DNA from: Nocardia ninae NBRC 108245 | GTDB taxonomy: Bacteria > Actinomycetota > Actinomycetes > Mycobacteriales > Mycobacteriaceae | DNA: 64,000 bases | Direction: 5' to 3' | Assembly (NCBI RefSeq): GCF_007990755.1 | Contig: NZ_BJXA01000026.1 | Location: forward strand, 38,725-102,724 | Part shown: positions 45,777 through 60,734 of the stretch, piece after piece | How the letters are laid out: each line of letters starts with the position of its first letter | Numbering within the stretch: the stretch's first letter is position 1 | Position numbers and translations under genes: made by a program | The notes under the pieces: generated by a model | Databases searched by the model: none | What the model was told of the DNA's origin: nothing | Seen by the model: only the letters and a program-made list of their open reading frames with translations

Positions 45777-46246
45777 TGCGCCGCCGCCTTTCGCTGTGCC
45801 GCGAGCCGCACGGCATCCAGGATTTTCTCGTATCCGGTGCAGCGGCAGAGGTTTCCGGCCAGTGCCTCGCGGATCTCCGCATCGGAAGGATCGGCATTGT
45901 GCTCGATGAGGTCGTGCGCCTGCACGATGAGACCCGGTGTGCAGAAACCGCATTGGACCGCCCCCGCCTCGACGAACGCCTGCTGCATCGGGTCGAGCTG
46001 CGCGCCCTTGGTCAGGCCCTCCACCGTCCGCACCGAACAGCCCTCGGCCTGACCGGCCGCCACCAGGCAGGAACACACCGGTGTACCGTTCAAATAGACC
46101 GTGCAGGAACCACATTCGCCCTGCTCGCAGGCGTTCTTGGAGCCGGGAAGGCCCATCCGCTCGCGCAGCATGTAGAGCAGGCTCTCGCCCTCCCACACGT
46201 CGTCGACGGTCTCCGTGGCGCCGTTCACGTCGAAGGTCACGCGCAT
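45773..46246 (-). CDS. pucE: xanthine dehydrogenase 2Fe-2S subunit
   Basis: A 157-residue small subunit from ATG 46246. The plant-ferredoxin cluster is ligated by Cys40, Cys45, Cys48 and Cys60 (ACEQGECGSCTVYLNG...CSC). The second cluster is ligated by Cys99, Cys102, Cys134 and Cys136 (QCGFCTPG, GNLCRCTGYE). It carries electrons from the Mo centre to the FAD subunit. Its start shares a base with the pucC stop. Confidence 0.95.
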   Translation of the reverse strand: MRVTFDVNGATETVDDVWEGESLLYMLRERMGLPGSKNACEQGECGSCTVYLNGTPVCSCLVAAGQAEGCSVRTVEGLTKGAQLDPMQQAFVEAGAVQCGFCTPGLIVQAHDLIEHNADPSDAEIREALAGNLCRCTGYEKILDAVRLAAQRKAAAQ

Positions 46247-47115
46247 CAGGCTGCCTTCCTTTCTGTCAGGTAGTCGGTCCATGCCCAGCCCAGCGTGCGG
46301 CGGGCCAGCACCGACAGGGCGTGCTTGCGGTAGTCCGCCGTGCCGCGGACGTCGTCGATCGGTGCCGCCGCGGCCGACACGAGCGCGCCGAACTCACGCA
46401 GCACACTGTCGGAGAGCGGGGCCGGATCGTGCCAAGGCAGCTGCGCGGCAAGGAATTCTTCAGCCGGCTTCGCGCGCAACGGCGTCGGTCCGGCCGAGCC
46501 GATGCCGGTCCGCGCGGTGCCGGTAGCCGGGTACAGCGCGACGGCGAACGAGCACACGGCGATCACCATGGCATTGCGCGTGCCGACCTTCGAAAAGTAC
46601 TGCGGCCCTTCGGCGGGCGGCAGCCAGACCGCGCGGATCAGCTCGTCGGGTTCGAGGGCGTTCTTCTTCACCCAGACGTAGAAGTCGTCGATCGGGATCA
46701 TCCGGGTGCCGCGGGTGGCCGACTCGACCTCGATCACCGCGTCGCCCGCGAGCAGCGCCGGATGGGTGTCCCCGGCCGGTGACGCGGCGCCGAGATTGCC
46801 GCCGACGGTGCCGCGGTTGCGGATCTGCGGCGAGCCGACGGTGCGCGAGGCCTGGGCCAGGCCCGGCAACTGATTGCCGAGCCGGTTGATGATCCGGACG
46901 TACGGCACACCCGCGCCGATGCGCAGCTTGCCGTCGATCTCGCTGTACTCGAACAACTCTCGGCACGGATTGAGGTCGAGCAGGGCACTCGGGCGGCCCT
47001 TGTCGAAGTTGAGCTCGACCATCATGTCGGTGCCGCCCTGGATGGGGGTGGCGTCCGGGCGGTTCGACTTGATGTCGAGGGCGTCCGCCCAGCTGGTGGG
47101 TCGCAAGAAGTCCAT
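46246..47115 (-). CDS. pucC: xanthine dehydrogenase FAD-binding subunit
   Basis: A 289-residue FAD subunit. MDFLRPTSWADALDIKS, then the FAD motif PIQGGTDMMVELNFDKGRP, and SRTVGSPQIRNRGTVGGNLGAASPAGDTHPALLAGDA. The ATG at 47115 is chosen because GGGAG lies five bases upstream; an in-frame GTG at 47127 overlaps the uricase stop. It passes electrons from the iron-sulfur centres to NAD+. Confidence 0.93.
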   Translation of the reverse strand: MDFLRPTSWADALDIKSNRPDATPIQGGTDMMVELNFDKGRPSALLDLNPCRELFEYSEIDGKLRIGAGVPYVRIINRLGNQLPGLAQASRTVGSPQIRNRGTVGGNLGAASPAGDTHPALLAGDAVIEVESATRGTRMIPIDDFYVWVKKNALEPDELIRAVWLPPAEGPQYFSKVGTRNAMVIAVCSFAVALYPATGTARTGIGSAGPTPLRAKPAEEFLAAQLPWHDPAPLSDSVLREFGALVSAAAAPIDDVRGTADYRKHALSVLARRTLGWAWTDYLTERKAA

Positions 47116-47117
47116 CG

Positions 47118-47993
47118 TCACTCCCACGCCGGTCCGGCGGCGGGCGCGTCCTCGCGCAACACGGTGCCTTCGATCAGGCCGTAGGGGCGGTCGGCCGCGT
47201 AGAACACCTCGTTGTCGTTGGTCAGCCCGAAGGCGGACAGGTCGACGACGAAGTGGTGCTTGTTGGGCAGCGACAGCCGGACCTCACCGATCTCCGCGCA
47301 GGCAGCGAGTACCCGCTCCCCCATCGCATACAGGGTCTGTTGCAGTGAGTAGCTGTAGGTTTCGGCGAACGCCTCCAGCATGGCGCGCCTGGCCTCGCGG
47401 TAGGTCTTGTCCCAGTCGCTGGGTTCGCCGATGTAGCGCCACTCCGCGTTGACCTCGGTGGCGAGGACGCGGTCGTAGGCCTCTTGCAGCGTGGTGTACT
47501 TGTCCTTCAGGTACCCGTGGAACTCCGAACCGGTCGAGTTGAGCACCACCAGGCCCTGCAAACCCGCGACGACCCAGGACTTTTCGCCGTCGTAGTGCAC
47601 CCGCGCGGTCCGCACCTCCTGGCCCGAGCGAACGAACGAGTGCTGCTCGTTGCTCGCACCGAGCACGATGCGCTCCCACGCGTACTCCTCGACGCTGACC
47701 CGTGCATGGTGAATGGTCGGCTGCGAATCGACGAAATGCCGGGCCAGCAGCTCACCGAACGCCTCCGGCGAGGAGATGCCGTGCTCCTTGGCGAAGGCGA
47801 AGACGGTGTTCTTCTGCGTGTCCGTCGGCAGCACCGCGCTGTTGTCGCCGGTGAGGTGCACCTCGTCCATGTCGCCGGACAGTGCGACGCCAACATTGAG
47901 ATCCCGGATCTCGTGCACGCCACCGTTTTTCGTCACGCCGACGACATGGGTCTCCGCTTTGCCATATCGGTTCGGACCGAGCTTGATCGACAT
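47118..47993 (-). CDS. pucL: urate oxidase (uricase)
   Basis: A 291-residue cofactor-free uricase (urate + O2 + H2O to 5-hydroxyisourate + H2O2). Two T-fold domains. Key motifs are NSAVLPTDTQKNTVFAFAKEHGI with the catalytic threonine and SFVRSGQEVRTARV, plus the end region LPNKHHFVVDLSAFGLTNDNEVFYAADRPYGLIEGTV. No fused decarboxylase domain (the B. subtilis PucL form is fused); here OHCU decarboxylase is a separate gene. Three bases separate it from hiuH. Confidence 0.96.
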   Translation of the reverse strand: MSIKLGPNRYGKAETHVVGVTKNGGVHEIRDLNVGVALSGDMDEVHLTGDNSAVLPTDTQKNTVFAFAKEHGISSPEAFGELLARHFVDSQPTIHHARVSVEEYAWERIVLGASNEQHSFVRSGQEVRTARVHYDGEKSWVVAGLQGLVVLNSTGSEFHGYLKDKYTTLQEAYDRVLATEVNAEWRYIGEPSDWDKTYREARRAMLEAFAETYSYSLQQTLYAMGERVLAACAEIGEVRLSLPNKHHFVVDLSAFGLTNDNEVFYAADRPYGLIEGTVLREDAPAAGPAWE

Positions 47994-47996
47994 TGT

Positions 47997-48296
47997 TCAG
48001 CTACCTCGATAGGTGGAGTAGGAATACGGACTGAGCAGCAGCGGCACGTGGTAGTGCGCCGCCGGGTCGGCGACGGTGAAGTCGATGGCGACCGAGGGGT
48101 AGAACGGGCTGAGCTCGGCGGTGTCGAAAGTCAGCCGGTGCGTGCCGGTTTCGGGATCAGGCAGGTCTTTGATGCGGCCGTCGTCGTCGGTGTGCCGTTC
48201 GGCGAGCACGGTTCCGTCGGCGCGGGACAGCTGGACCCTGAGTCCGGCCGCCGGCCGCCCGGTCACCGCGTTCAGCACGTGGGTGGACAAACTCAC
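47997..48296 (-). CDS. uraH: 5-hydroxyisourate hydrolase (transthyretin-like)
   Basis: A 99-residue HIUase from GTG 48296 (5-hydroxyisourate to OHCU). N-terminal LSTHVLNAVTGRPAAGL, an arginine/histidine active site (ERHTDDDGRIKDL, AAHYHVPLLLSPYSYSTYRGS) and the C-terminal tetrapeptide YRGS, the family hallmark. The start overlaps the decarboxylase stop (GTGA). It acts between uricase and OHCU decarboxylase. Confidence 0.96.
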   Translation of the reverse strand: MSLSTHVLNAVTGRPAAGLRVQLSRADGTVLAERHTDDDGRIKDLPDPETGTHRLTFDTAELSPFYPSVAIDFTVADPAAHYHVPLLLSPYSYSTYRGS

Positions 48297-48805
48297 TTCT
48301 CCCCCAGCAGCTTTCGCACACGCAGCCGGGTGATGTCGGCGAGCTCGCCCTGCACCTTGATGCGCTCGTCGAGCAGCGAGTTGGCCAGGCGCTTGCGCAG
48401 CTCGGTGAGCATTTCCTCGGCGCTGCGGCCGGTGGCGCGGATCAGAAAGACGTGACCGAACCGGTCCTCGTAGGCCCGGTTCCCCGCGGCGAGCTCGGCC
48501 CGCACGGCGGCGTCGGCGGTCGCGGCGCCGGACTGTTCGCCGCGCGACCACTCGGCCTCCCGCTCGGATAACTCGGCCTTGGCCCGATCGCCGATGCGCG
48601 GATGCGCCGACAGCGCCTCCTCGACATCCGGCCAACTCAGCTCGCACACCGCGGCGACTGCCGCGGCGGTGGCGCTCGCGGTGTCGGGATAGGGCCGCGA
48701 GGCCGCCACCTTCTGCGCCCACTGCCGGGACGCGCAGCAGGCCAGCAGTTCCTGCACGGCGCGGTCCGGCGGCAACGAGTTGAGCCATCCGATGTCGCCT
48801 GCCAT
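48293..48805 (-). CDS. uraD: OHCU decarboxylase
   Basis: A 170-residue 2-oxo-4-hydroxy-4-carboxy-5-ureidoimidazoline decarboxylase giving S-allantoin. WLNSLPPDRAVQELLACCASRQWAQKVAASRPY, then LSAHPRIGDRAKAE (catalytic His-Pro-Arg-Ile-Gly) and NRAYEDRFGHVFLIRATGRSAEEML. ATG 48805 follows AGGAGG. It is the first gene of the minus-strand purine cluster, so its promoter should lie in the 162-bp gap shared with pucR. Confidence 0.95.
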   Translation of the reverse strand: MAGDIGWLNSLPPDRAVQELLACCASRQWAQKVAASRPYPDTASATAAAVAAVCELSWPDVEEALSAHPRIGDRAKAELSEREAEWSRGEQSGAATADAAVRAELAAGNRAYEDRFGHVFLIRATGRSAEEMLTELRKRLANSLLDERIKVQGELADITRLRVRKLLGEK

Positions 48806-48883
48806 CTGACCTCCTGTCGGGGTTCGCCAATCTGTTCCGCAAGTACACCCGCCGGGGAACACCGCAGCTAGAAACGAGAAATC

Positions 48884-48902
48884 TGAACTGTGCGCCAGTT
48901 CA
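48884..48902. promoter_or_regulatory. perfect palindrome, candidate PucR operator
   Basis: TGAACTG-TGCGC-CAGTTCA has perfect 7-bp arms around a 5-bp spacer. It lies midway in the divergent region between uraD (start 48805) and pucR (start 48968), so it could control both. Confidence 0.6.
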
Positions 48903-48967
48903 CAACCAACTCTTTGTGCGAATGTCCAAGGGCGTTCACCAGGGGTGCGACTGTTAGCCTTCGCACC

Positions 48968-50473
48968 GTGCGCCTTCGATCACTGCTGACCATGGCGGAC
49001 CTGGGACTAGAGCTCGTCACCGGCGAGGAAGAGCTGGACCGGTTCGTGCGCTGGGTGGTGACCACCGACATGCTCGACCCTGGTCGCTACCTCTCCGGCG
49101 GAGAGCTCGTGCTCACCGGCATGCAGTGGCGCCACGATCCCGCCGACAGCGAGGTCTTCGTCCGCGCGCTGGCCCAGGCCGGCGTGGCGGGCATGGCCGC
49201 AGGTGACGCCAGGTACGGCGGCGCGCCGCCGGATGTGGTCGAGGCCTGTCGCAAGCATCGGATTCCGCTGTTCCGGGTGCCGGAGACGGTCGCGTTCGCA
49301 GCGGTCACCGAGCAGATCACCCGCAATCTGTCGACCGGACGGGCCGCAGATCTCACCGCGATCCTGGACCGGCACCGCCAGCTCGTCTCGGGAGCAGGCC
49401 TCGGCTCGGTGCTGGAACTCATCGAACGCGACCTCGGCATGCGCTGCTGGGTGGTGTCGTCCACCGGCCGGGCAGTGGCCGGGCCCGCCACCGCGCCGCC
49501 GGTCGAGGTGACCACCGCGTTCCTCAGTGCCCGCCGCCTGCCGTGCGCGTTGCTGCACGAGGGCGGCCGATTCTCCCTTTTCGCGGTGGACGAGCACCGC
49601 ACCTCACGGGCCGCGGACTGGTTCCTCGTGTTCGAGGGCGATTACACCGAGTGGCCCGAGGAGCGGCGCGCACTGGCCGGTGAGCTCGCCGCCGTGGTGT
49701 CGCTGGAACGCGCCCGTCAGGACGACCGGCAGAGCGCCGAGGGGCGGCTCGCGCAGGAACTCATCGAACTCATCGTCTCGGATGCCAAACCGACCGAGAT
49801 CATTTCGCGGCTGGAACTCACCGGATTGGGGCCCGCCGAGACCTACATCGCCGTCGCAGCCGCCGGTGACGACACGTTGCGGCCCGGCGAGTTACGCGTG
49901 CTGCTGCGCGAAATCCTTTACGGCAGAAGGCCTGCCGCTGGCGTGGTGGACGGCGAGGCGATCGCGCTGATCCCCGCCGGACCGGACACCCCCGTCATCG
50001 ACGAAATCAACCGTGCGGTCACCGCTTTGGAGCCAGGACTACGCGGCAGCCGACTATCCGTGGGCGTCAGCGGTGTGGTCGACGGCGAAGGCCTGCGCGG
50101 CGCCGTCGAAGAAGCCCGCTACGCCCGCCGCATGGCCGCAGGCCGCCTCCAGCCCGCCAGCGTCGTCGGCCACGATGAACTCGCCACCCACATGCTCCTG
50201 CTCGCCTCAGTCCCCGACGAGGTCCGCCGCATGTTCCGCCTGCGCCTCCTCGACCCCCTCACCACCTACGACCAGGACAACCGCGCCGACCTCGTGCACA
50301 CCCTGGAAACCTTCCTAGAGGTCTCCGGCTCCTGGACCAAATGCGCCGACCTCCTCCACGTCCACGTCAACACCCTGCGCTACCGCATCCAGCGCATCGA
50401 AGAACTCACCGCCCGCGACCTCTCCCGCCTCGAAGACCGAGTCGACTTCTTCCTCGCCCTCGCCTTGCGCTGA
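48968..50473 (+). CDS. pucR: PucR family regulator of purine catabolism
   Basis: A 501-residue PucR-type regulator from GTG 48968. The N-terminal PucR sensor domain includes LRSLLTMADLGLELVTGEEELDRFVRWVVTTDMLDPGRYLSGGELVLTG and RCWVVSSTGRAVAGP. A GGDEF-like middle follows, then the C-terminal HTH_30: FLEVSGSWTKCADLLHVHVNTLRYRIQRIEELTARDL. An in-frame ATG exists at 48890 but it lies within the palindrome. It is divergent from, and probably controls, the purine operon in response to allantoin or a similar intermediate. Confidence 0.92.
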   Translation: MRLRSLLTMADLGLELVTGEEELDRFVRWVVTTDMLDPGRYLSGGELVLTGMQWRHDPADSEVFVRALAQAGVAGMAAGDARYGGAPPDVVEACRKHRIPLFRVPETVAFAAVTEQITRNLSTGRAADLTAILDRHRQLVSGAGLGSVLELIERDLGMRCWVVSSTGRAVAGPATAPPVEVTTAFLSARRLPCALLHEGGRFSLFAVDEHRTSRAADWFLVFEGDYTEWPEERRALAGELAAVVSLERARQDDRQSAEGRLAQELIELIVSDAKPTEIISRLELTGLGPAETYIAVAAAGDDTLRPGELRVLLREILYGRRPAAGVVDGEAIALIPAGPDTPVIDEINRAVTALEPGLRGSRLSVGVSGVVDGEGLRGAVEEARYARRMAAGRLQPASVVGHDELATHMLLLASVPDEVRRMFRLRLLDPLTTYDQDNRADLVHTLETFLEVSGSWTKCADLLHVHVNTLRYRIQRIEELTARDLSRLEDRVDFFLALALR

Positions 50474-50573
50474 TCAGAGTTCTCGCCTCGGCGATCACCC
50501 CAACGCTCGACACCACCGCTTCGGCGTTCCGCACTGCGCCGATCTAACTGCCGCACAACATATTCAACGACAT

Positions 50574-51113
50574 CTACGCATCTGCTGAACCGACCTGGGT
50601 GATCTTGCGGTTGCCCAGGCGGGACATCAGGTCCTGGTGCAGAATGCGCAGTAGGTCGGTCAGGTCGGCCTGCTGCTGGGGAGTCAAGCCGGAGAGTAGA
50701 TCCGCTTCGCGGCCGAGGACCTGGTCGACCAGTCGTTCGACGAGGTCGTGGCCGGCCGGGGTGAGAGCGACGACGACTGCGCGTGATCCGTCGTTCAGGG
50801 GTGAGCGGGCGACCAGGCCTTCGGCTTCGGCGCGGGCGACGCGCTGGGAGATCGCGCCTGCGGTGAGCATGGTGTGGTCTTGGAGCTGGCGGGTGGTCAG
50901 GCGGTACGGCGGGCCGCTGCGGCGGAGCACGCTGAGCAGATCCAGGGTGGCCGTGTCGGCGTGCTCGGCGGCGAGCACTCGGCGGCGGTCGTCGCCGAAT
51001 AGCTTGGCCAAGTGCCAGATTCGGGTTACCACGCCGATGCCGTCGACCGGCGTGCCCGGGCGCTCGCGCCGCCAGGCCAGTGCGATCGCGTCGACGGGAT
51101 CGTTGTCGTCCAT
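50574..51113 (-). CDS. MarR family transcriptional regulator
   Basis: A 179-residue MarR-type winged-helix repressor: the DNA-binding core YRLTTRQLQDHTMLTAGAISQRVARAEAEGLVARSPLNDGSRAVVVALTPAGHDLVERLVDQVL, with a dimerisation helix at each end. It is divergent from an SDR gene across a region with two 14-bp palindromes, so it probably represses both itself and the SDR until an aromatic or phenolic ligand binds. Ligand unknown. Confidence 0.9.
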   Translation of the reverse strand: MDDNDPVDAIALAWRRERPGTPVDGIGVVTRIWHLAKLFGDDRRRVLAAEHADTATLDLLSVLRRSGPPYRLTTRQLQDHTMLTAGAISQRVARAEAEGLVARSPLNDGSRAVVVALTPAGHDLVERLVDQVLGREADLLSGLTPQQQADLTDLLRILHQDLMSRLGNRKITQVGSADA

Positions 51114-51129
51114 GCCACTCCTCGGTTGC

Positions 51130-51166
51130 GTTCAGACCTAAACGACGGCTACGTTTAGATCTAAAC
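51130..51166. promoter_or_regulatory. tandem MarR operators
   Basis: GTTTAGATCTAAAC at 51153-51166 is a perfect 14-bp palindrome. GTTCAGACCTAAAC at 51130-51143 matches it at 12 of 14 bases. The sites are 23 bp apart, about two helical turns, in the 75-bp MarR/SDR divergent region. Confidence 0.7.
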
Positions 51167-51188
51167 ATACCCGATGAAGGAGATTCAC

Positions 51189-51908
51189 ATGGCACGGAAC
51201 ATCGTGGTAACCGGCGGCGCCACCGGCATCGGCCGGGCCATCGCACACACCTTCGCGGCCGCGGGCGACGCGGTGATGATCACCGGGCGCCGGGCCGAGC
51301 CGCTGCACGCCACAGCCACGGAACTCGGCGCGACAGCCTACGTCTGCGACGCGACCGATCCAGCGCAGATCGAGACGCTGGTCGATCAACTCCCCCGCGA
51401 GATCCACGTGCTGGTCAACAACGCGGGCGGCAATACCGACTTCGACCTGAACGCGCCGACCGATCTGCGGAGCCTGGCCGCCGCCTGGCGAGCCAACCTG
51501 GACGCCAACTTGATCAGCGCCGTGCTGATGACCTCGGCGCTGCGTGACCGGCTGACAAATCCCGGTGCCGTGGTGAACATCGGCTCGATCGCCGCGGACA
51601 AAGGCGCGGGCGCCTACGGCGCGGCCAAGGCCGGTCTCGCCTCATGGAATACGCAACTGTCCGCCGAGCTGGGCCCGCTCGGCATCACCGCGAATGTCGT
51701 TTCCCCCGGCTACATCTCCGACACGGAGTTCTTCCGCGACAAATTGACCGACGAGCGGCGCGCATCCCTCATCGCCGCCACCCATACTCGCCGCCCCGGC
51801 ATTCCGGACGATATCGCCGCCGCGGTGCACTATCTCGCTTCACCCGCCGCCCGCCAAGTGACCGGTCAGGTGCTCGCGGTCAATGGCGGCGAACGCACCA
51901 CCCGGTAA
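51189..51908 (+). CDS. short-chain dehydrogenase/reductase
   Basis: A 239-residue classical SDR from ATG 51189 (GAAGGAG upstream). Cofactor motif VVTGGATGIGRAIA with ITGRR (arginines favour NADP), NNAGG, catalytic Ser in VNIGSIAADKG and the YxxxK pair in AYGAAKAGLAS. The end VTGQVLAVNGGE is typical of FabG-like enzymes. It is repressed, probably, by the divergent MarR. The substrate is not readable. Confidence 0.9.
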   Translation: MARNIVVTGGATGIGRAIAHTFAAAGDAVMITGRRAEPLHATATELGATAYVCDATDPAQIETLVDQLPREIHVLVNNAGGNTDFDLNAPTDLRSLAAAWRANLDANLISAVLMTSALRDRLTNPGAVVNIGSIAADKGAGAYGAAKAGLASWNTQLSAELGPLGITANVVSPGYISDTEFFRDKLTDERRASLIAATHTRRPGIPDDIAAAVHYLASPAARQVTGQVLAVNGGERTTR

Positions 51909-52032
51909 GTCCGCCGATACCCGCGGCGCGCGGGAGAAAGGCGGGCAATGGGGTCGATACAGGCATTACGGAAAACGGGGATTAGCATGATCGAGCTGGT
52001 AACGGTGGATTTGCCGATCCCGAGGTGGTTCG

Positions 52033-52965
52033 ATGACGAAAGCTGTTCCACGGCCTGTTGCGCTGGGCGATGATGCTGCCCGGACACTGGCTAATGCCAC
52101 GAAGACCGTTCCGCAGATGGAGTCGATCACCCCTCGGTGGTTGGTTCATCTGCTGAACTGGGTTCCCGTCGAGGCCGGTATCTACCGGCGCAACCGGGTT
52201 ACCCACGAACAAACCGTCGATATTCAGTGCGATAATTTCGACGAGTCTCCGCTTCCGGAGACATTTATCGACTACGAACGAGACCCGCGCGAGTATCGAC
52301 TCAAAGCGGTGCACACGATTCTCGACGTGCACACGCGCGTTTCAGATCTGTATTCGAGCCCGCACGATCAGATTGCTCAGCAGTTGCGGCTCACCATCGA
52401 AGCGATCAAAGAGCACCAAGAGGGCGAGCTGATCAACAGCCCTGACTATGGGCTGATCGCCAATGCCGCGAAAAAGCAACGGCTGGCGACGATCGCCGGG
52501 CCGCCGACGCCCGACGATCTCGACAATCTGATCACGAAGGTGTGGAAAGAGCCCGGGTTCTTCCTTACTCATCCGCAGGGCATCGCGGCCTTCGGCAGGG
52601 AATGCACCCGGCGCGGTGTGCCGCCGCCGACGGTGAGCATGTTCGGGTCGCAGTTCCTGACCTGGCGTGGCATTCCGATCATTCCGTCGGACAAGGTTCC
52701 AGTGGATCGCGGCAAGACCAAGTTTCTGCTGATTCGCACCGGCGAAGCCAGGCAGGGCGTGGTCGGGCTGTATCAGCCGGGGCTGGCCGGCGAACAGGGA
52801 CCGGGTCTTTCGGTGAAGTTCATGGGTATTGATCGCAGCGCGATCGCGTCGTATCTGGTGTCGCTGTACTGCTCGCTGGCGATTCTGACCGACGATGCGG
52901 TGGCAGTGCTCGACGGAGCCGAGGTGGGCAAGTTCCATGACTACGCACCGACCTACCGGAGCTGA
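52033..52965 (+). CDS. family 2A encapsulin shell protein (SrpI/MMPI-like)
   Basis: A 310-residue protein matching the family 2 encapsulin group that includes SrpI of Synechococcus and Major Membrane Protein I of Mycobacterium leprae. These are HK97-fold proteins that assemble into a protein nanocompartment. Visible features: RTLANATKTVPQMESITPRWL, VEAGIYRRNR, SPHDQIAQQLRLTIEAIKEHQEGELINSPDYGL, FFLTHPQGIAAFGRECTRRGVPPPTVSMFG and LSVKFMGIDRSAIASYLVSLYCSLAIL. No cyclic-nucleotide-binding insertion is present, which separates 2A from 2B. The stop lies 29 bp inside the next gene, a cysteine desulfurase, the known cargo of this family. It is predicted to encapsulate that enzyme in the cytoplasm. 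Confidence 0.92.
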   Translation: MTKAVPRPVALGDDAARTLANATKTVPQMESITPRWLVHLLNWVPVEAGIYRRNRVTHEQTVDIQCDNFDESPLPETFIDYERDPREYRLKAVHTILDVHTRVSDLYSSPHDQIAQQLRLTIEAIKEHQEGELINSPDYGLIANAAKKQRLATIAGPPTPDDLDNLITKVWKEPGFFLTHPQGIAAFGRECTRRGVPPPTVSMFGSQFLTWRGIPIIPSDKVPVDRGKTKFLLIRTGEARQGVVGLYQPGLAGEQGPGLSVKFMGIDRSAIASYLVSLYCSLAILTDDAVAVLDGAEVGKFHDYAPTYRS

Positions 52966-55144
52966 CATCTCGCGCCCATCCGACGATGGCGGCGCCGAGT
53001 GGATGCTGCCGGACGAGGCGACGCTGAATCGCCTTGCCGGAGCCTTCTTCTCGGCGCTGCCCTCGGCGTCGGCGGGACTCCCCGCCGCATCTATGGGCCC
53101 GAGCGTGCTGCAACCGGATATGCCGACCTCGCCGCCGAACGTGCCGGTACCGTCTCCGGTGCCGACGGCGACGGCGGTCGGCGCGCCCGGGTTTTCGGGT
53201 GCGCCGCATCCCGGTGGACACCCACCGGCCGCGGCATCCTCGGGCGCACAGAATGTTTCGGGCGCCACACCCGGTGGCCGAACCCCAGAGCCCTATATCC
53301 CCGGGGTCACGGGCATCACAGCACCCGCAAGCACGCCGTCGGTGGCAAGACCCGCCACCGCAACGGCGTCCGGTGCCCGCACCCCGTCGGCCGCGTCCGG
53401 CACAAAAGGACCCTCCGGTGCCACGCCACACGGTGGCCACACGCCCGCAACTGCGTCCGAGGCGACCAAGTCCTCCGGCGCCACCCCGCCCGGCAGCAGC
53501 ACGCGGTCGGCCGCGTCGGGCACGAGAGGTACCTCGGGTGCCACGCCGCCGGGCGGCCGCACGCCGGAGCCGTCCGTGCCGGGTGTGTACGGCACCACCG
53601 TTCCCGGCGGCCGTACATCGTCAGGTGCACAAGGACTTTCGGGCACCACACCGCCAGGTGGCAGCACACCTGCGCCGTCGGTGCCGGGCTGGGGACGCGA
53701 CGTGCCGATGGCCGACGCGGCGGGACAACCCGCGCACCCACCGGTCAGTACCGCGGGCATCCACAACGACCCGTTCTTGACCGCGATACCGTCGTTGCGC
53801 GAAGTGCTTTCACCGCAACGTTTTCCCGAACCCACGTCGTCCGCCACACCGAGCTTCTATTTCCTGGATGCGCCGACCTCGACGGGCACCGCCACGCCGA
53901 CCCGCCTGCCGGACGCACACCCACCGTTCGACGTATACGCCGTGCGCAACGACTTCCCGATCCTGCGGGAACAGGTCAACGGCCATCCGCTGGTGTGGTT
54001 CGACAACGCCGCCACGACGCAGAAGCCGCAGTCGGTGATCGAGCGGATCACCCGCTTCTATGAGCACGAGAACTCCAATATCCACCGGGCGGCACACGAA
54101 TTGGCGGCACGGTCCACCGACGCCTACGAGCAGGCCCGCGACATCGTGGCCCGGTTCATCGGCGCGTCCTCGGCGGAGGAGATCATCTTCGTCCGCGGCG
54201 CCACCGAAGGCATCAATCTGATCGCACAGACGTGGGGCCGCAAGAACATTCGCGCGGGCGACGAGATCATCATCTCGCACCTGGAACACCACGCCAATAT
54301 CGTCCCGTGGCAGATGCTCGCCGCCGAGACCGGCGCGCACCTGAAGGTCATTCCGGTCGACGACAACGGCGAGCTGCTGCTCGGCGAATACACCAGGCTG
54401 CTCTCCGACCGAACGAAACTTGTTTCGGTAACCCATGTCTCGAACGCCCTCGGCACCATAACCCCGGTGCGCGAGATCGTCGCCGAAGCCCAGCGCGCCG
54501 GGGCGGTCACCCTCGTCGACGGCGCGCAATCGGTCCCGCACACCAGCATCGACGTGCGCTCGATCGGCGCCGATTTCTTCGTGTTCTCCGGGCACAAACT
54601 GTTCGGGCCCACCGGAATCGGCGTGGTCTACGGAAAATCCGAGATACTGCAAGACGTGCCACCCTGGCAGGGCGGCGGCAACATGATCAGCGACGTCACC
54701 CTGGAGCGTTCGCTGTTCCAGCCGCCACCGGGACGATTCGAGGCGGGCACCGGCAATATCGCCGACGCGGTCGGGCTGGGCGCGGCCATCGAATACGTCG
54801 AACGTCTCGGCATGGACGCCATCGCGCGCTACGAGCACCACCTGCTCGAGTACGCGACACCCCGGGTCGCCGCGGTGCGCGGGGTCCGGCTGGTGGGCAC
54901 CGCCGCCGACAAGGCGAGCGTGCTCTCCTTCGTCATGGATGGTTACGAGCCGATCGAGGTCGGCCGGGCGTTGAACGAGCAGGGCATCGCGGTGCGCGCG
55001 GGTCATCATTGCGCACAACCGATCCTGCGTCGGCTCGGGCTGGAGGCGACCGTGCGTCCGTCGTTCGCCTTCTACAACACCTGCGCCGAAATCGACCGGA
55101 TGGTGGCGGCGCTCGACCAGCTCGCGGCTCGTTCACCGCGGTGA
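52937..55144 (+). CDS. encapsulin-cargo cysteine desulfurase with long disordered N-terminus
   Basis: A 735-residue protein from ATG 52937, which overlaps the encapsulin gene by 29 bp. Residues ~332-735 are a complete type II (SufS-like) cysteine desulfurase: YAVRNDFPILREQVNGHP, EGINLIAQTWG, PLP-binding Lys554 in FSGHKLFGPTGIG, and active-site Cys692 in RAGHHCAQPILRRLG. Residues 1-331 form a Pro/Gly/Ala/Ser/Thr-rich extension with internal repeats, as in encapsulin-2A cargo. Short conserved-looking islands (LPDEATLNRLAGAFF at 24-38; a PSLREVLSPQRFPEP island before the enzyme) are candidates for shell targeting. It removes sulfur from L-cysteine, giving alanine and enzyme persulfide. Related compartments have been linked to sulfur storage. 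Confidence 0.93.
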   Translation: MTTHRPTGADISRPSDDGGAEWMLPDEATLNRLAGAFFSALPSASAGLPAASMGPSVLQPDMPTSPPNVPVPSPVPTATAVGAPGFSGAPHPGGHPPAAASSGAQNVSGATPGGRTPEPYIPGVTGITAPASTPSVARPATATASGARTPSAASGTKGPSGATPHGGHTPATASEATKSSGATPPGSSTRSAASGTRGTSGATPPGGRTPEPSVPGVYGTTVPGGRTSSGAQGLSGTTPPGGSTPAPSVPGWGRDVPMADAAGQPAHPPVSTAGIHNDPFLTAIPSLREVLSPQRFPEPTSSATPSFYFLDAPTSTGTATPTRLPDAHPPFDVYAVRNDFPILREQVNGHPLVWFDNAATTQKPQSVIERITRFYEHENSNIHRAAHELAARSTDAYEQARDIVARFIGASSAEEIIFVRGATEGINLIAQTWGRKNIRAGDEIIISHLEHHANIVPWQMLAAETGAHLKVIPVDDNGELLLGEYTRLLSDRTKLVSVTHVSNALGTITPVREIVAEAQRAGAVTLVDGAQSVPHTSIDVRSIGADFFVFSGHKLFGPTGIGVVYGKSEILQDVPPWQGGGNMISDVTLERSLFQPPPGRFEAGTGNIADAVGLGAAIEYVERLGMDAIARYEHHLLEYATPRVAAVRGVRLVGTAADKASVLSFVMDGYEPIEVGRALNEQGIAVRAGHHCAQPILRRLGLEATVRPSFAFYNTCAEIDRMVAALDQLAARSPR

Positions 55145-55162
55145 ATGCCCCCTCGTGTCCTC

Positions 55163-55186
55163 TACGTCAGCCGTGCGGCTGACGTA
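55163..55186. terminator. strong stem-loop terminator after the encapsulin operon
   Basis: Perfect 11-bp arms TACGTCAGCCG (55163-55173) and its complement (55176-55186) with only two bases between them, 18 bp after the desulfurase stop and before the convergent deacetylase stop. Confidence 0.75.
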
Positions 55187-55212
55187 AAGGACTGGGCACC
55201 GACGACAGTCAC

Positions 55213-56220
55213 TCAGTACGGCTTGGCCTGACCCGACCACCGCGAATTCAGTGTCCCGGATAAGCGCGCAGGGAAGGAGATCTGCTGTGGATTACCGTCG
55301 GAGGTGTAGCGCTGCTGCGGATCCGCGGCGAGCCGGTCCAGCCAGTAGGTGGAGTCGAAGTCGACCGGCGTTGCGCCCGAACGGATTCGGGGTACCGCCG
55401 TGGGATCGAGGTCGCCGTAGTGCGACGGCGCCGGGTTCGAACCGACCAGCATCACCGCCTCGAACGCATAGTTCGTGCCGTCCCAGCTACCCGCGGTGGC
55501 CAGGGCCCGGTCGGCCGGGGAGATGCCGAGCGGCAACGCCATTGTCCGTACCCGACCGGGCGCCGCCGACACGATGGCGCGCACGTTGTCTGCCAGCTCG
55601 CGTTGGACTCCGGTGCTGTCCAGCTGGGCGAGGTTCGCGTGGCTCGCGGTGTGGGCGCCGATCTCGTAACCGTGTGCGGCCAGCCAGGACAGCGCGCGCG
55701 GATCATTTCCGAACGGCTCATTGTTGACGTAGAACGTTGCGGTGGGCGCGAAGTCGGGATGCTCGGTGCGGAACTGTTCGAGGATGCCGATGGCGGTGTC
55801 GGGCGCTACCTGACCGTCCGCGGTGAAGGTGAGCTGGCTGAGGGTGGAGTCGTCGAAGGTGAGCACCACCGGATGGGTGCCCGCCGGGAGGTCGACAGCA
55901 CCGGAGATGTACGCGGCGGCGGTCACCGGACGGTAGTTCTCGCGATACAGCCGATCGAGCTCAGCGCGGAATTTCGCTGGCGTCTGGTCGTATTCGCTGT
56001 CCGGCACGGCCGCCAGCTGGTGGTACATCAGGATCGGCACGACGCCGAGCTCGTTGGCGCCCACCGCGGCGGGATCGGGCGGCGGGCTGCTCGCGGGCGG
56101 CGGCGTCTCCGCCATCGCACGCGGTGGATCGACTGGTTCGGCGTCCGCCGTGCAGGCCGCGGCCGTGCACATCAGCACCGACAACATAACTCGAACACCG
56201 AAGGTCGCGTTCATCGCCAC
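55213..56220 (-). CDS. polysaccharide deacetylase lipoprotein
   Basis: A 335-residue exported protein: signal peptide VMLSVLMCTAAAC with probable lipidated Cys23, a Pro-rich linker, then a NodB-type deacetylase domain. Motif 1 VVLTFDDS (Asp122-Asp123) and motif 2 HTASH (His189-x3-His193) supply the base and metal ligands. It should remove acetyl groups from cell-wall or capsular polysaccharide. ATG 56214 is an alternative start two codons later. It is divergent from a DUF4015 glycosidase-like gene, so the two may act on the same polymer. Confidence 0.88.
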   Translation of the reverse strand: MAMNATFGVRVMLSVLMCTAAACTADAEPVDPPRAMAETPPPASSPPPDPAAVGANELGVVPILMYHQLAAVPDSEYDQTPAKFRAELDRLYRENYRPVTAAAYISGAVDLPAGTHPVVLTFDDSTLSQLTFTADGQVAPDTAIGILEQFRTEHPDFAPTATFYVNNEPFGNDPRALSWLAAHGYEIGAHTASHANLAQLDSTGVQRELADNVRAIVSAAPGRVRTMALPLGISPADRALATAGSWDGTNYAFEAVMLVGSNPAPSHYGDLDPTAVPRIRSGATPVDFDSTYWLDRLAADPQQRYTSDGNPQQISFPARLSGTLNSRWSGQAKPY

Positions 56221-56330
56221 CGCGCGAACAGTACGCGAGCGCGACCATTTCGTTGCATACGAAACACCGGCAAAGTAGCGACGGCCGCGGGCCGAACCCG
56301 CGATAGTTGATCATCTTCGGACGAAAGTTG

Positions 56331-57932
56331 GTGTGCGCGTTGCTAGAAAGACTAGGCGTTACAGGACACCGGCGGTTGGCGGCGGTCCTGGTTATCTCAG
56401 TCTTATCAATTCTTGTCGCTTCTGTGACCCTCAGCTGGGTGCGTACCGAACCCAAGGGATTGAGCCTGGCCGGCCTCCCGAACACGCTGATCGGCGCGAC
56501 TGCCCTGTCCGCCACGACATTGCGGGTGGACGCGGGTGAACACGACCCCGCCGCTATGCGACTCGAGCTCAACGGCGTGCCGGTCGACGGCACCGTCGAA
56601 GGCAATACCGTCGTGTACCGCCCGGGGTCACTGCCCGATGGCGAGCACAAGTTCACCGCCGAGATCCCGCCGAGCGTGCTGGGCTTCCTGCGCACCGGTC
56701 CCGGCGTATCCAAGACGTTCACGGTGGACAACGAACCACCAGCCCTGGAGCTGACCCAACCCACGGGCGTGACTTCCTACCGTCAGCCGGTTACCGTGCG
56801 CGGCAAGGCAAAAGGCGCCGACCGCGTCTCGGTCGGCGCCCAGTCGGTGACCCCCGCCGCCGACGGCACATTCGAGCTCACCCTGCCTCGGATCCAGACC
56901 GGCGCCGACGTCGTCGCCGTGGACGGCGCGGGAAACCGGACCACCGCGGCGATCACGGCAGCGGTGGAGCAGCCCAAGATCAAGGCGGTCCACGTGACCG
57001 CCTACGGCTGGTCGGACGACGGCCTGCGCGAGGACGTGCTGGCCATGGCCCGCGACGGGCGCATCAACACCGTGCAGCTCGACATCAAGGACGAGGACGG
57101 TGTCGTCGGCTACGACTCCCAGGTGCCGCTCGCCCGGGAGTCGGGCGCGGTCACCCCGATCTACGACGCCCCCACGGCCTTGCGGCAATTGCATGACATG
57201 GGCATCCGCGTGGTGGGCCGGATCGTCGCGTTCCGGGACAAGACGATGGCCGAATGGGCCTGGCAGACAGGGCGTTCCGACTGGGTTGTGCAAACCCCCT
57301 CGGGTCAGCCGTACTCCAGCAAGTACGGCCCGATCGCCTTCACCAACTTCGCGAACCCCGAGATGCGCAAATACAACATCGATCTCGCGGTCGAGGCGGC
57401 GAAGCTCGGCTTCGACGGCATCATGTACGACTACATCCGGCGACCGGACGGCGCGCTGTCGCAGATGCACTTCCCCGGCGCCACGGTGTCGCCGACCGTC
57501 TCCATCGCCGAGTTCCTCAGGGAGAGCCGCGATCCGGTGCGCGACGCGGGCGCCGACCAGAGCGCCGCCGTGTTCGGCATCGCCTCCACCCGCCCCGATC
57601 AGATCGCCCAGGACATTCCGCTGATGGCGAAGTACGTCGACTACATCGCCCCCATGGTGTACCCCTCCCATTGGAACCCCGGCGAATACGGTGTCGCCAA
57701 CCCGAACTCCCAGCCCTACGACATCACCTTCCGGTCGTTGCAGGACTTCCACACCCAGACCCAGGGCACCGGCGCCCAGATCGTCCCGTGGTTGCAGGAC
57801 TTCAGCCTGGGCGTGAACTACGGCCCCGCCGAGGTGCGTGCCCAGATCGACGCCGCGAACGACGCGGGCGTCAACGGCTTCTTCCTCTGGAGCCCGACGG
57901 TGCGCTATCACCTCGCAGGTTCCTCGGACTGA
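56331..57932 (+). CDS. DUF4015 putative glycoside hydrolase, membrane-anchored
   Basis: About 533 residues from GTG 56331 (GGACGAAAG upstream; the frame opens at a TTG at 56307). An N-terminal transmembrane helix (RLAAVLVISVLSILVASVTL) anchors the protein outside the cell. Two beta domains follow (residues ~45-215; PPALELTQPTGVTSYRQPVTVRG). The TIM-barrel DUF4015 domain begins near residue 220: VHVTAYGWSDDG, TVQLDIKDEDGVVGY, GIRVVGRIVAFRDKTMAEW, GFDGIMYDYIRRPDG with an acidic active-site strand, and YVDYIAPMVYPSHWNPGEYG. The family is GH13-like and poorly characterised. Divergent from the polysaccharide deacetylase. Confidence 0.85.
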   Translation: MCALLERLGVTGHRRLAAVLVISVLSILVASVTLSWVRTEPKGLSLAGLPNTLIGATALSATTLRVDAGEHDPAAMRLELNGVPVDGTVEGNTVVYRPGSLPDGEHKFTAEIPPSVLGFLRTGPGVSKTFTVDNEPPALELTQPTGVTSYRQPVTVRGKAKGADRVSVGAQSVTPAADGTFELTLPRIQTGADVVAVDGAGNRTTAAITAAVEQPKIKAVHVTAYGWSDDGLREDVLAMARDGRINTVQLDIKDEDGVVGYDSQVPLARESGAVTPIYDAPTALRQLHDMGIRVVGRIVAFRDKTMAEWAWQTGRSDWVVQTPSGQPYSSKYGPIAFTNFANPEMRKYNIDLAVEAAKLGFDGIMYDYIRRPDGALSQMHFPGATVSPTVSIAEFLRESRDPVRDAGADQSAAVFGIASTRPDQIAQDIPLMAKYVDYIAPMVYPSHWNPGEYGVANPNSQPYDITFRSLQDFHTQTQGTGAQIVPWLQDFSLGVNYGPAEVRAQIDAANDAGVNGFFLWSPTVRYHLAGSSD

Positions 57933-57952
57933 TTCGGGAGCACGGCGCGAAC

Positions 57953-57979
57953 GGCCCAGGCGCGGTGCCGGCCTGGGCC
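57953..57979 (+). terminator. stem-loop terminator
   Basis: Perfect 9-bp arms GGCCCAGGC (57953-57961) and complement (57971-57979), 9-base loop, 20 bp after the DUF4015 gene. Confidence 0.65.
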
Positions 57980-58072
57980 TACTACCTGCAAAAATACAAC
58001 GCGAACGACCGATCGGTTATGATGAATAAGCATGATCACACCTCACGTGACCGGCGCGGTTACGCTGGTGTG

Positions 58073-58555
58073 GTGAACGTTGAAGTGACGCGCCTACCGG
58101 GTATCGGTGTGCGCAAGGACTTTCCGGTCAAGGGCGGTCGCCGCCGGATCGGGGTCATCGATCACAAGGACGGCACGATCTATCTGATCGTCAGCAAAGC
58201 CGACAATCCGGAAGCCACGGATCAGATTCCGCTGTCGGCGTCGGAGGCGGCCGCGCTGGCCAACTTACTGGGCGCCCCGCAGCTGATCGCGCAGCTACGG
58301 GACGAGCATCGCGAGTTCGACGGCGTGAATACCCGGCAGTTGTTGATTCTCGACGACTCCCCCTATGCCGGCCGCCCGCTCGGCGATACCGAGATGCGCA
58401 GCCGGACGCGGTGCTCCATCGTGGCGATCATGCGGGGTGGTGCGGTCATCCCGTCGCCCGGCCCGGACTTCATGTTCGCCGCAGGCGACCTACTGGTGGT
58501 CGTCGGTACCGCCGAGGGATTGGAAGCCGCCGCCAAAATCCTCACCGACGGCTGA
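58073..58555 (+). CDS. KhtT-like cation/proton antiporter regulatory subunit (TrkA-C)
   Basis: A 160-residue soluble protein: an N-terminal domain (EVTRLPGIGVRKDFPVKGGRRRIGVIDHKDGTIYL) and a C-terminal TrkA-C (RCK_C) domain (RCSIVAIMRGGAVIPSPGPDFMFAAGDLLVVVGTAEGLEAA) that binds nucleotide-like ligands such as c-di-AMP in relatives. Such KhtT proteins gate a KhtU K+/H+ antiporter normally encoded next to them, but none is present here. GTG at 58073 has no ribosome site, and a -10-like TACGCT ends six bases upstream, so it may be leaderless. Confidence 0.82.
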   Translation: MNVEVTRLPGIGVRKDFPVKGGRRRIGVIDHKDGTIYLIVSKADNPEATDQIPLSASEAAALANLLGAPQLIAQLRDEHREFDGVNTRQLLILDDSPYAGRPLGDTEMRSRTRCSIVAIMRGGAVIPSPGPDFMFAAGDLLVVVGTAEGLEAAAKILTDG

Positions 58556-58564
58556 GCGGTACCT

Positions 58565-59281
58565 TCAGCCGCTGAACACGTCGAACACTTCCTCCGCCCG
58601 GTCCCGGCTGTGGTACATATCCCAGGCCGTGTCGGCGAGCTGGTCGGGATCGAGGGTGTGACCGTCGGGCGATCCGTAGCGGTCCGGATCGGCGGTCACC
58701 ATGCTGTGGATATCCCCGCGTTCGATGAGACCGCCGATGGTGAGGGTGCCCGCATAGACCCCGCGATCGGCGAGAGCGGCATGCAGCGTGACGGCGTAGT
58801 TGCGCAACGCGGCGGAGGGCAGCGCCAGGTGGCCGAGCATGGGCATCGGCCGGACGCTGGAGAGCCCGCCCGCGAACAGTAGTGCGCCGGAACCGCGGGC
58901 CAGCATGGCCGGGAGCACGTCGTGCACCATGTCGACGGCGGGCCAGATCCAATCGAACGCGGATCGCGCTGTGTCGGCGTCCATTTCGGTGAGCGGGATG
59001 GGGTGGTGCGCCGAAGCCGGTCCGTAGTAGGCGAGTTCGATGTCACCATCGCTCGCTATGTCGGCGAGAACCGACTTCAGCCGGGCCCGGTCGGCGACGT
59101 CGGCCGCATGGGCGGTGGCGTCGATACCTTGCGCCGCAAGATCTTTCAGATAGCTCTCGTGGCGCGCGTCGTTGCGCGACACCAGCGCGACCCGGAATCC
59201 CTCGCTGCCGAATCGCCGCGCCATGGACATGCCGAGTCCGGGTCCGACGCCGATGATCACGGCCGTGGGTGTGCTGGACAT
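58565..59281 (-). CDS. atypical SDR-family protein without the catalytic YxxxK
   Basis: A 238-residue Rossmann protein: AVIIGVGPGLGMSMARRFGSEGFRVALVSRN is an SDR cofactor site, and ATAHAADVADRARL and ALLFAGGLSS follow. Where classical SDRs have YxxxK this one reads HLALPSAALRNYAV, so both catalytic tyrosine and lysine are missing. It may be a regulatory NAD(P)-binding protein or use another mechanism. Strong AGGAGA before ATG 59281. Divergent from a TetR gene with operator-like dyads between them. Confidence 0.85.
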   Translation of the reverse strand: MSSTPTAVIIGVGPGLGMSMARRFGSEGFRVALVSRNDARHESYLKDLAAQGIDATAHAADVADRARLKSVLADIASDGDIELAYYGPASAHHPIPLTEMDADTARSAFDWIWPAVDMVHDVLPAMLARGSGALLFAGGLSSVRPMPMLGHLALPSAALRNYAVTLHAALADRGVYAGTLTIGGLIERGDIHSMVTADPDRYGSPDGHTLDPDQLADTAWDMYHSRDRAEEVFDVFSG

Positions 59282-59302
59282 AAGATCTCCTGTTCCTAAA
59301 CT

Positions 59303-59352
59303 GAGGGGGCCCTCGATTTAAAAACCTAGCACGAAATCGAGGAGCCCCTCGA
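59303..59352. promoter_or_regulatory. TetR operator pair
   Basis: GAGGGGGCCCTCGATTT (59303-59319) is mirrored by AAATCGAGGAGCCCCTC (59334-59350), 15 of 17 bases complementary. The right site contains its own palindrome, TCGAGG-AGCC-CCTCGA (59337-59352). The layout suits two TetR dimers in the divergent SDR/TetR promoter region. Confidence 0.65.
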
Positions 59353-59371
59353 CTTTTGTAGGATGGTCGCC

Positions 59372-59938
59372 ATGACCAAACCGTTGCGCCGCGACGCGGC
59401 CCGCAATCGCGAGAAGCTGTTGCGCGAGGCCGCCGGTGTGTTCACCGAGCAAGGGCTCGACGGTTCACTGGAGGAGATCGCGCGCCGGGCCGGGGTCAGC
59501 ATCGGCACGCTCTACAACCACTTCCCGCACCGTGACGCGCTCATCGATGCGCTGCTGCCCGCCCGGCTCGCCGCGATGGAGGATTTCGCCGCGCGAGCGG
59601 CGGCCGAACCGGATGCGTGGGTGGCGTTCAGCGGCTTCATCGAGCAGCTGCTGGACCAGTTCACCGCAGACCGCGGGCTGCTCGAGGCCTTCACCGGTAA
59701 CCACCCCGCCGCCGCCCAGCTCACCGAGGCCTGCCACCGCGGCATGTCACACCTCTCGACGCAGCTGCACCGGGCCAGGCAGGCGGGTGCGGTGCGCGCC
59801 GACGCGACCGATGACGACGTGGTGCATCTGGTGTGGGCACTGTCGCTGCTCGGCGAGGCGACCGGCGCACCCGCCTGGCGCCGCTGCCTGCAACTGGTCC
59901 TCGACGGCCTGCGCCCCACCAACCCACCGACGCGATAG
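59372..59938 (+). CDS. TetR family transcriptional regulator
   Basis: A 188-residue TetR repressor. N-terminal helix-turn-helix: RRDAARNREKLLREAAGVFTEQGLDGSLEEIARRAGVSIGTLYNHFPHRDALIDALL. The all-helical ligand domain follows (FIEQLLDQFTADRGLLEAFTG). ATG 59372 is chosen over 59363 because the AGG at 59360-59362 is too close to the earlier ATG. It probably represses itself, the hydrolase that follows after ten bases, and the divergent SDR. Confidence 0.9.
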   Translation: MTKPLRRDAARNREKLLREAAGVFTEQGLDGSLEEIARRAGVSIGTLYNHFPHRDALIDALLPARLAAMEDFAARAAAEPDAWVAFSGFIEQLLDQFTADRGLLEAFTGNHPAAAQLTEACHRGMSHLSTQLHRARQAGAVRADATDDDVVHLVWALSLLGEATGAPAWRRCLQLVLDGLRPTNPPTR

Positions 59939-59948
59939 GACCGATACC

Positions 59949-60734
59949 GTGCCATATGCCAAGGCCGCCAACGGAGTTCGCCTCGCGTATCAAACCGCGG
60001 GCGCGGGCACGCCGCTACTCCTGCTCGCCGGGCAAGCCAACAACCATCACTGGTGGGACGGCATCCGCGAGGATTTCGAAACCCGGTATCGCACCGTCAC
60101 CCTCGACTGGCGCGGCACCGGCGACAGCGACAAGCCCGACGAGCCTTACAGCACAGCGGGTTTCGCCGAAGACGTGGTCGCGGTGCTGGATGACCTCGGC
60201 ATCGAACGGGCAGCGGTGTACGGCACGTCGATGGGTGGCCGGGTCGCGCAATGGCTGGCCGCCCGCCATCCCGAACGGGTGCACGGCCTCGTCCTCGGCT
60301 GCACCTCCCCCGGCGGCAAGCACGGCATCGAACGCGGTCCCGAGATTCGGCAGTCGCTCGTCCAGCCCGACCGGGACGCGGCCGATCAGGCCCTGCTGGA
60401 ACTGATGTACACCCCGAAGTGGCTCGCGCACACCACCGGCCCGTACAACACCGTCGGCGATCCCACCATGCCCGCCTACGCCAAACGCCGGCACCTGATG
60501 GCCAGCAACCGCCACGACGCCTGGGATGCACTGCCGGACATCGCAACTCCCACCCTGATCGTGCACGGCACCGAGGACCGCTTCAATCCGGCGGCGAACG
60601 CGCCGTTGCTCGCCGAGCGCATCCCGCACGCTCGCATGCGGTTGATCGCCGGCGCACGGCACGCCTACTTCGACGAATTCCGTGCCATCGCAAGCCCGCT
60701 CGTGCTGGACTTCTTGAACGAGGTCGGTACATAA
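59949..60734 (+). CDS. alpha/beta hydrolase
   Basis: A 261-residue cytoplasmic alpha/beta hydrolase from GTG 59949 (AGGA upstream). Oxyanion region LLLLAGQANNHHWWDGIRED, strand VTLDWRGTGDSDKP, nucleophile elbow YGTSMGGRV with Ser94, catalytic acid in HGTEDRFNP and the histidine in AGARHAYFDEF. It resembles 3-oxoadipate enol-lactonase-type or lipase/esterase-like members. It is in an operon with the TetR regulator. Substrate unknown. Confidence 0.88.
   Translation: MPYAKAANGVRLAYQTAGAGTPLLLLAGQANNHHWWDGIREDFETRYRTVTLDWRGTGDSDKPDEPYSTAGFAEDVVAVLDDLGIERAAVYGTSMGGRVAQWLAARHPERVHGLVLGCTSPGGKHGIERGPEIRQSLVQPDRDAADQALLELMYTPKWLAHTTGPYNTVGDPTMPAYAKRRHLMASNRHDAWDALPDIATPTLIVHGTEDRFNPAANAPLLAERIPHARMRLIAGARHAYFDEFRAIASPLVLDFLNEVGT

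Follow-up and report, generated by a model that had tools for sequence, protein, structure and literature searches.

Family 2A encapsulins are widespread. In the SrpI-type systems, the cargo carries two motifs, LARLANEFFS and AASPYYFLDG (PMC8049743, in part). In Synechococcus elongatus, a protein fused to the first 100 residues of the cargo tail was loaded, and a piece bearing the second motif alone gave no loading (PMC8049743, in part). Genes for serine acetyltransferase and rhodanese are enriched in family 2A operons without being obligatory there (PMC8346489, in part). Here, a locus of this kind is described from a 64-kb stretch of the genome of Nocardia ninae NBRC 108245 (hereafter the window), in which a shell gene overlaps the gene of a cysteine desulfurase. 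The locus is very probably a two-gene family 2A sulfur encapsulin cassette, with a SufS-type desulfurase anchored by motifs in its tail and sulfur held in the shell. It is ordinary in kind. What is new is a leader seen only before 2A shell genes, a stretchable cargo tail, and an absence of partner genes that extends over a whole branch of shells.

Shell and desulfurase genes

The pair and the ribosome-binding stretches ahead of each gene are as follows.

52033..52965, plus strand: family 2A encapsulin shell protein, 310 amino acids (aa) (NF041162, PF19307, PDB matches)
52937..55144, plus strand: cysteine desulfurase cargo, 735 aa, overlapping the shell gene by 29 bp (NF041166, TIGR01979)
52022..52028, plus strand: GAGGTGG, Shine-Dalgarno-like, before the shell gene (read from the sequence; an AAGG/GAGG-type stretch is kept in the alignment)
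52921..52927, plus strand: GAGGTGG, Shine-Dalgarno-like, within the shell gene, ending 9 nucleotides (nt) before the cargo start (read from the sequence)

An earlier note on this DNA had proposed an SrpI/MMPI-like shell and an overlapping SufS-like desulfurase, and both open reading frames (ORFs) are present (52033-52965, and a frame ending at 55144), the 29-bp overlap being counted from the ATG at 52937. The shell protein scores 526.2 bits against NF041162, the NCBIfam model of family 2A (cut-off 380), and 336.7 bits against the SrpI-like PF19307, the sole Pfam domain in its 310 aa; the cyclic-nucleotide-binding domain that marks family 2B is absent from it in the Pfam scan. Its closest PDB entries are 8t6r (E 2.6e-153, aligned over residues 8-308), 9ksl, 8wol, 8won and 6x8m (E 2.4e-141). 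From ATG 52937, the cargo reaches 854.6 bits against NF041166, the family 2A cargo model (cut-off 800), and 555.3 bits against the sufS model TIGR01979 (cut-off 475.1), and the closest PDB chain of its desulfurase domain is 8kg1. The residues H451/H452, K554 and C692 lie within its EHHAN, SGHK and GHHC motifs; as in SufS, they would be catalytic.

The pairing of the two genes is conserved. In a sample of 118 Nocardia genomes drawn from a larger group, 87 hold some shell match and 23 a full-length match at 76-100% identity. These 23 are taken as 2A, since the remaining matches cover only the part expected of 2B shells. All 23 carry, directly after the shell gene and on the same strand, a gene over the cargo-model cut-off. 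Broader comparisons draw on 113 stretches (the window and 112 loci, cited by L numbers), of which 18 with shell DNA duplicating another were removed to leave 95. The 24 Nocardia loci and cargos among these come from the 23 genomes and from L109 (N. thailandica). Together, the curated models, the solved relatives, both published cargo motifs and the invariable pairing bear out the earlier assignment to family 2A with a cognate desulfurase cargo.

Several observations weigh against this assignment. The shell also exceeds the cut-off of the family 2B model (414.9 vs 400), the best stretch there being profile positions 208-449 only, i.e., the shell part. Its AlphaFold2 model is poor, with a mean predicted local distance difference test (pLDDT) score of 48.9, and the Foldseek matches have a template modelling (TM) score of about 0.49 at a root-mean-square deviation of about 24 Å. 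The top seven of these matches are family 2 encapsulin entries, the eighth is the T5 capsid and phage capsids come next; given the low confidence of the model, support for the HK97 fold comes mainly from sequence and Foldseek adds little. The motif table covers 93 cargos, as L122, whose contig stops before the cargo, and L171, where no open start was found, were excluded. Over these cargos of all groups, stricter patterns found the first motif in 79 and the second in 67; the latter is thus absent from 26/93 and in that form is not universal. Lastly, no accessory sulfur gene is adjacent to the shell-cargo pair.

A second shell-like protein of 470 aa occurs in the same genome (9.70 Mb in 204 contigs), on the minus strand near the end of contig C15 (L055:1087-2499). 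Its match to the window shell is split in two (47% and 52% identity), the pattern expected of a 2B shell that carries an inserted domain.

By homology, the shell protein would assemble into an icosahedral shell of the HK97 fold; shells of relatives measure about 25 nm. The desulfurase would be translated from the start overlapping the shell 3' end, probably through translational coupling. The start at -29 is the one nearest the shell end in 21/23 loci of the genus; in L041 it lies at -26 and in L054 at -23, the latter also having -29. Other in-frame cargo starts exist, such as the window ATG at -71, and only the -29 start is common to the loci. The sequence AGGTGG, or AGGTGA/AGGTCG, precedes the cargo start in the 23 loci.

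The cargo tail

Ahead of the FDV..VR motif that opens the enzyme, the cargo carries a tail of 330 residues with the following parts.

53024..53053, plus strand: cargo motif M1, residues 30-39, LNRLAGAFFS (relaxed pattern in 24/24 Nocardia cargos)
53054..53854, plus strand: spacer rich in Pro/Gly/Ala/Ser/Thr, of variable length (cargo comparison)
53855..53866, plus strand: cargo motif M2, residues 307-310, FYFL, followed by D ([FY]YFL in 24/24 Nocardia cargos)

M1 and M2 are the counterparts of the published LARLANEFFS and AASPYYFLDG, respectively. Three Nocardia cargos (L048, L050 and L054) escaped an initial, overly strict M1 pattern, and the relaxed pattern recovers all of them. The [FY]YFL motif is present twice in 11 of the 24. 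The tail had earlier been described as a disordered extension of 331 residues; the count falls one short of this, and the disorder is borne out by the AlphaFold2 model, in which residues 1-328 mostly have pLDDT <50 except for 24-41 and a few short stretches. This model, built on a 22-row alignment, has a mean pLDDT of 59.8, and low pLDDT is an indirect sign of disorder. The only helix predicted in the tail, residues 27-39, lies over M1.

The length of the tail varies from 53 to 330 residues among the 24 Nocardia cargos, the window having the longest, and none of the 24 tails contains a cysteine residue. The shortest, in L054, consists of M1 and M2 and little else. Length also differs between close relatives. 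The nearest relative of the window, L033, is about 95.8% identical over 20 kb and colinear with it except for one break within the cargo gene, and its shell DNA is identical to that of L097, Nocardia suismassiliense S-137. At a single point, 93 codons of the window spacer are missing from L033. Similar GGC-CGN-ACN units flank this indel on both sides, and diverged repeat units may have recombined to produce it. In the tail DNA, which holds no tandem repeats and no ungapped direct repeats of at least 20, local blastn gave a single 42-bp pair of 86% identity.

In the proposed mechanism, the disordered tail would anchor the enzyme inside the shell through M1 and M2, with M1 as the probable main anchor, and the stretch between them would act as a flexible spacer of nearly free length. 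Nocardia offers natural experiments on the regulation of family 2A encapsulins and on which parts of the long cargo tail matter: the near-motif-only tail of 53 residues, the 93-codon difference between close relatives, and the leader described below. The locus with the shortest tail (L054, genome G035) also has the most divergent Nocardia shell, at 76% identity and on a long branch, and is without that leader.

The leader ahead of the shell gene

51998..52015, plus strand: 18-nt leader GGTAACGGTGGATTTGCC, an imperfect dyad GGTAA-N8-TTGCC, 17 nt before the shell start (pattern search, locus comparison)
51983..51988, plus strand: TAGCAT, candidate -10 element (suggested by similar TAnnnT stretches in relatives)

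The leader is confined to 2A shell genes within the sample. The exact pattern GGTARCGGTNGATTTGCC has 16 sites in the 118 Nocardia genomes, and each lies 17-18 nt ahead of a full-length 2A shell gene; the same search found no exact site in the Nocardia genomes without such a shell, and a backwards control pattern had 0 sites in each of the 118. Of the 23 shell genomes, 7 have no exact site: five carry an altered copy and two (L053 and L054) none, the search in L054 having been made upstream of a start position extrapolated from the shell match. When up to 5 mismatches are allowed, 22/24 Nocardia loci have the leader (21 at up to 2 mismatches), 16-20 nt from the start. The best score in 4800 shuffled stretches was 4 mismatches, reached 8 times. 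Among the matches listed, the leader was not found before shells outside Nocardia. Within the window's own genome, up to 3 mismatches give 19 sites (15 forward, 4 reverse) vs 7 for the backwards control, one of them at 0 mismatches. A wider regulon in this genome was considered and rejected, as there is no sign of one and the three sites with 2 mismatches lie in unconvincing sequence context.

Because the loci are related, the 16 sites are not independent events, and the leader might be a mere remnant of recent common ancestry without function, as the occurrence of several near copies would allow. However, bases farther upstream are far less conserved in the same loci, and, overlapping-frame artefacts aside, any given neighbouring gene recurs in at most 9/33 loci of the branch to which the window belongs (see below). 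The leader has therefore outlasted its surroundings, and a functionless remnant seems improbable. The leader-bearing shells span 89 to 100% identity, and their flanks differ.

The leader is a strong candidate cis-element that may control expression of the cassette, and its dyad would suit an operator bound by a protein as well as a small hairpin in the mRNA. In the proposed mechanism, a promoter with its own leader would drive expression of the shell protein. A TAnnnT-like stretch lies 9-10 nt ahead of the leader in most of the 22 leader-bearing Nocardia loci, and a sigma-70-type promoter scan from 50400 to 56400 gave no match. The position of the leader between the candidate -10 element and the Shine-Dalgarno stretch would suit an mRNA element; in that case the dyad would be a hairpin of the 5' untranslated region (UTR) that adjusts translation or stability, and not an operator in the DNA. 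Five pairs can form, with 96% of cells paired over 15 distinct rows and one two-sided change, and these pair counts lean weakly toward a hairpin without being decisive. Yet 30/500 shuffles equal the score, the mean share of paired cells over the shuffles is 94.7%, 3/15 rows break one of the pairs, and the 64-kb window has no Rfam family at the gathering score. Moreover, the loop is as conserved as the stem, and for this reason the operator is placed slightly ahead. The mRNA hairpin is a tentative alternative.

A short upstream reading frame, such as a cysteine-sensing leader peptide, has two points in its favour: in the window, a frame from ATG 51987 enters the shell gene and has several cysteine codons at its end, and the variable positions 10 and 19 share one codon position. 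In L041 and L044, however, the frame lacks a start and a stop lies just upstream of it, and in L034-L037 and L042 there are no cysteine codons at its end. A cysteine leader peptide was rejected because the frame is not conserved in relatives, and an upstream frame of any such kind is highly improbable.

On balance, it is moderately probable that the leader serves to control the Nocardia encapsulin and no other target, acting through a putative regulator or on the mRNA, and that it was passed down together with a self-contained pair of sulfur genes functioning in a genus that has no canonical serine acetyltransferase. If so, its binder would reveal how the expression of such an actinobacterial encapsulin is turned on. 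The parts of the literature on family 2A and sulfur encapsulins that were consulted (PMC8049743, PMC8346489, PMC12407261, PMC10960027) mention no such leader, which does not show that it is unpublished.

Partner genes, sulfur supply and known systems

The earlier note had stated that neither serine acetyltransferase nor rhodanese is adjacent to the pair. This was confirmed both by Pfam, for nine flanking genes from 47121 to 60731 (not every gene there), and by tblastn over the whole window. The tblastn searches covered the 95 distinct loci at E 1e-8 (up to about 21 kb per locus, the window at full length), the queries being two serine acetyltransferase-like and two rhodanese proteins from the same loci; Pfam assigns the representatives tested to Hexapep and Rhodanese. 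The following counts are limited by the shortness of some stretches and by the choice of queries, since a dissimilar rhodanese would go undetected. Serine acetyltransferase was found in 0/24 and rhodanese in 0/24 Nocardia loci, in 1/10 (L165) and 0/10 loci of other actinobacteria, and in 3/3 and 0/3 loci of the genus g29, where the gene also exceeds the cut-off of the curated CysE model. The remaining loci, mostly from proteobacteria, have serine acetyltransferase in 47/58 and rhodanese in 55/58.

A shell tree was built from 57 chosen rows of the 95, rooted at the midpoint and with bootstrap values not fully settled. A starred branch on it separates the 24 Nocardia rows and 9 rows of other actinobacteria from the proteobacteria, with which the g29 rows and L165 are placed. 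Taken with the tblastn counts, 0/33 loci on the Nocardia side have either partner. The absence that the earlier note had called unusual here is instead the rule of the branch. Nocardia does not form one group on this tree, the long branch of L054 being placed unsurely, and transfer of the cassette between genera is likely. L053 (G042), a Nocardia shell without the leader, pairs with L096 (G131) of another genus, as if acquired separately.

As the locus has no accessory genes, other parts of the genome must provide the cysteine and an acceptor for the sulfur. Nothing in the 118 sampled Nocardia genomes exceeds the cut-off of the curated CysE model, which 8/14 control genomes pass. Weaker matches of 148-170 bits occur in three Nocardia genomes (L177, L178 and L179), and the best match in the window's genome has 31 bits; a divergent serine acetyltransferase in Nocardia is possible. 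Among cargo-bearing genomes of other genera, 5/10 pass; in the three from g29 the gene lies close to the encapsulin, and in the two from g8 it is located in another part of the genome. With no canonical serine acetyltransferase detected in Nocardia, cysteine would have to arrive by another route, and the genus raises the question of where the encapsulated enzyme obtains it. Of the 22 PALP matches in the window's genome, the catalytic stretches of ten were scored with NCBIfam. One reaches 484 bits on the cystathionine beta-synthase model, whose cut-off of 510 applies to the whole protein, and two resemble cysteine synthases, falling below the cut-offs as fragments. Reverse transsulfuration is a candidate source of cysteine. 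Rhodanese domains do exist elsewhere: the genome has 12 matches, and among the matches listed (7) none lies on this contig.

The enclosed enzyme would take sulfur from cysteine, and the shell would retain it in persulfide or elemental form, as relatives are reported to do. With no rhodanese alongside to retrieve stored sulfur, the shell might instead mainly channel or boost the desulfurase, by shielding the persulfide or acting as an activator, with no storage of sulfur. In S. elongatus, encapsulation raised the activity of the enzyme, and a SufE-like action of the shell is discussed by the authors (PMC8049743, in part). Nevertheless, the closest solved shell, 8t6r, is cargo-loaded, and channelling by itself is considered unlikely relative to storage within the shell.

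Downstream of the pair, one further feature lies between convergent genes.

55157..55192, plus strand: strong hairpin after the cargo stop (fold of 55142-55215)

The fold of 55142-55215 has -35.3 kcal/mol and a z of -4.66, with 0/200 shuffles as low, so the strength claimed earlier for a closing hairpin is real. It has no T-run downstream and is not in the list of the terminator scan. Convergent with the cargo gene is a polysaccharide-deacetylase protein (55213-56220), followed by a divergent DUF4015 glycosyl-hydrolase-like protein (56307-57932; both by Pfam). Upstream, a short-chain dehydrogenase/reductase (SDR) gene at 51174-51908 was rejected as an operon partner, as it precedes the shell only in the window and L033-L039, or 8/33 loci of the branch. 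Farther away, at 45773-50473, Pfam recognizes a purine-degradation-like set with uricase and a PucR regulator, whose neighbouring frames in the ORF list resemble xanthine-dehydrogenase-type subunits and an amidohydrolase.

Overall, the Nocardia cassette resembles several described systems. Like the Mmp1 encapsulin of Mycobacterium smegmatis (8wol, 8won), it has the family 2A shell of an actinobacterium. In g29, a genus of the same family as M. smegmatis, a CysE gene lies nearby in 3/3 loci and the shells group with proteobacterial ones, in contrast to 0/33 for the Nocardia branch. The best PDB sequence match of the shell, 8t6r from Acinetobacter baumannii, is described as a cargo-loaded family 2A shell; the Acinetobacter loci L174 and L175 have serine acetyltransferase-like and rhodanese genes nearby, whereas the Nocardia locus has neither. 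The SrpI-CyD system of S. elongatus (6x8m) shares the shell family, the SufS-like cargo and a disordered tail with two motifs, although its tail has 225 residues vs 330 in the window (PMC8049743, in part). Induction by sulfate starvation was shown in S. elongatus (PMC8049743, in part). By analogy with these relatives, the Nocardia shell would likewise assemble, load its desulfurase, store sulfur and be induced by sulfur limitation.

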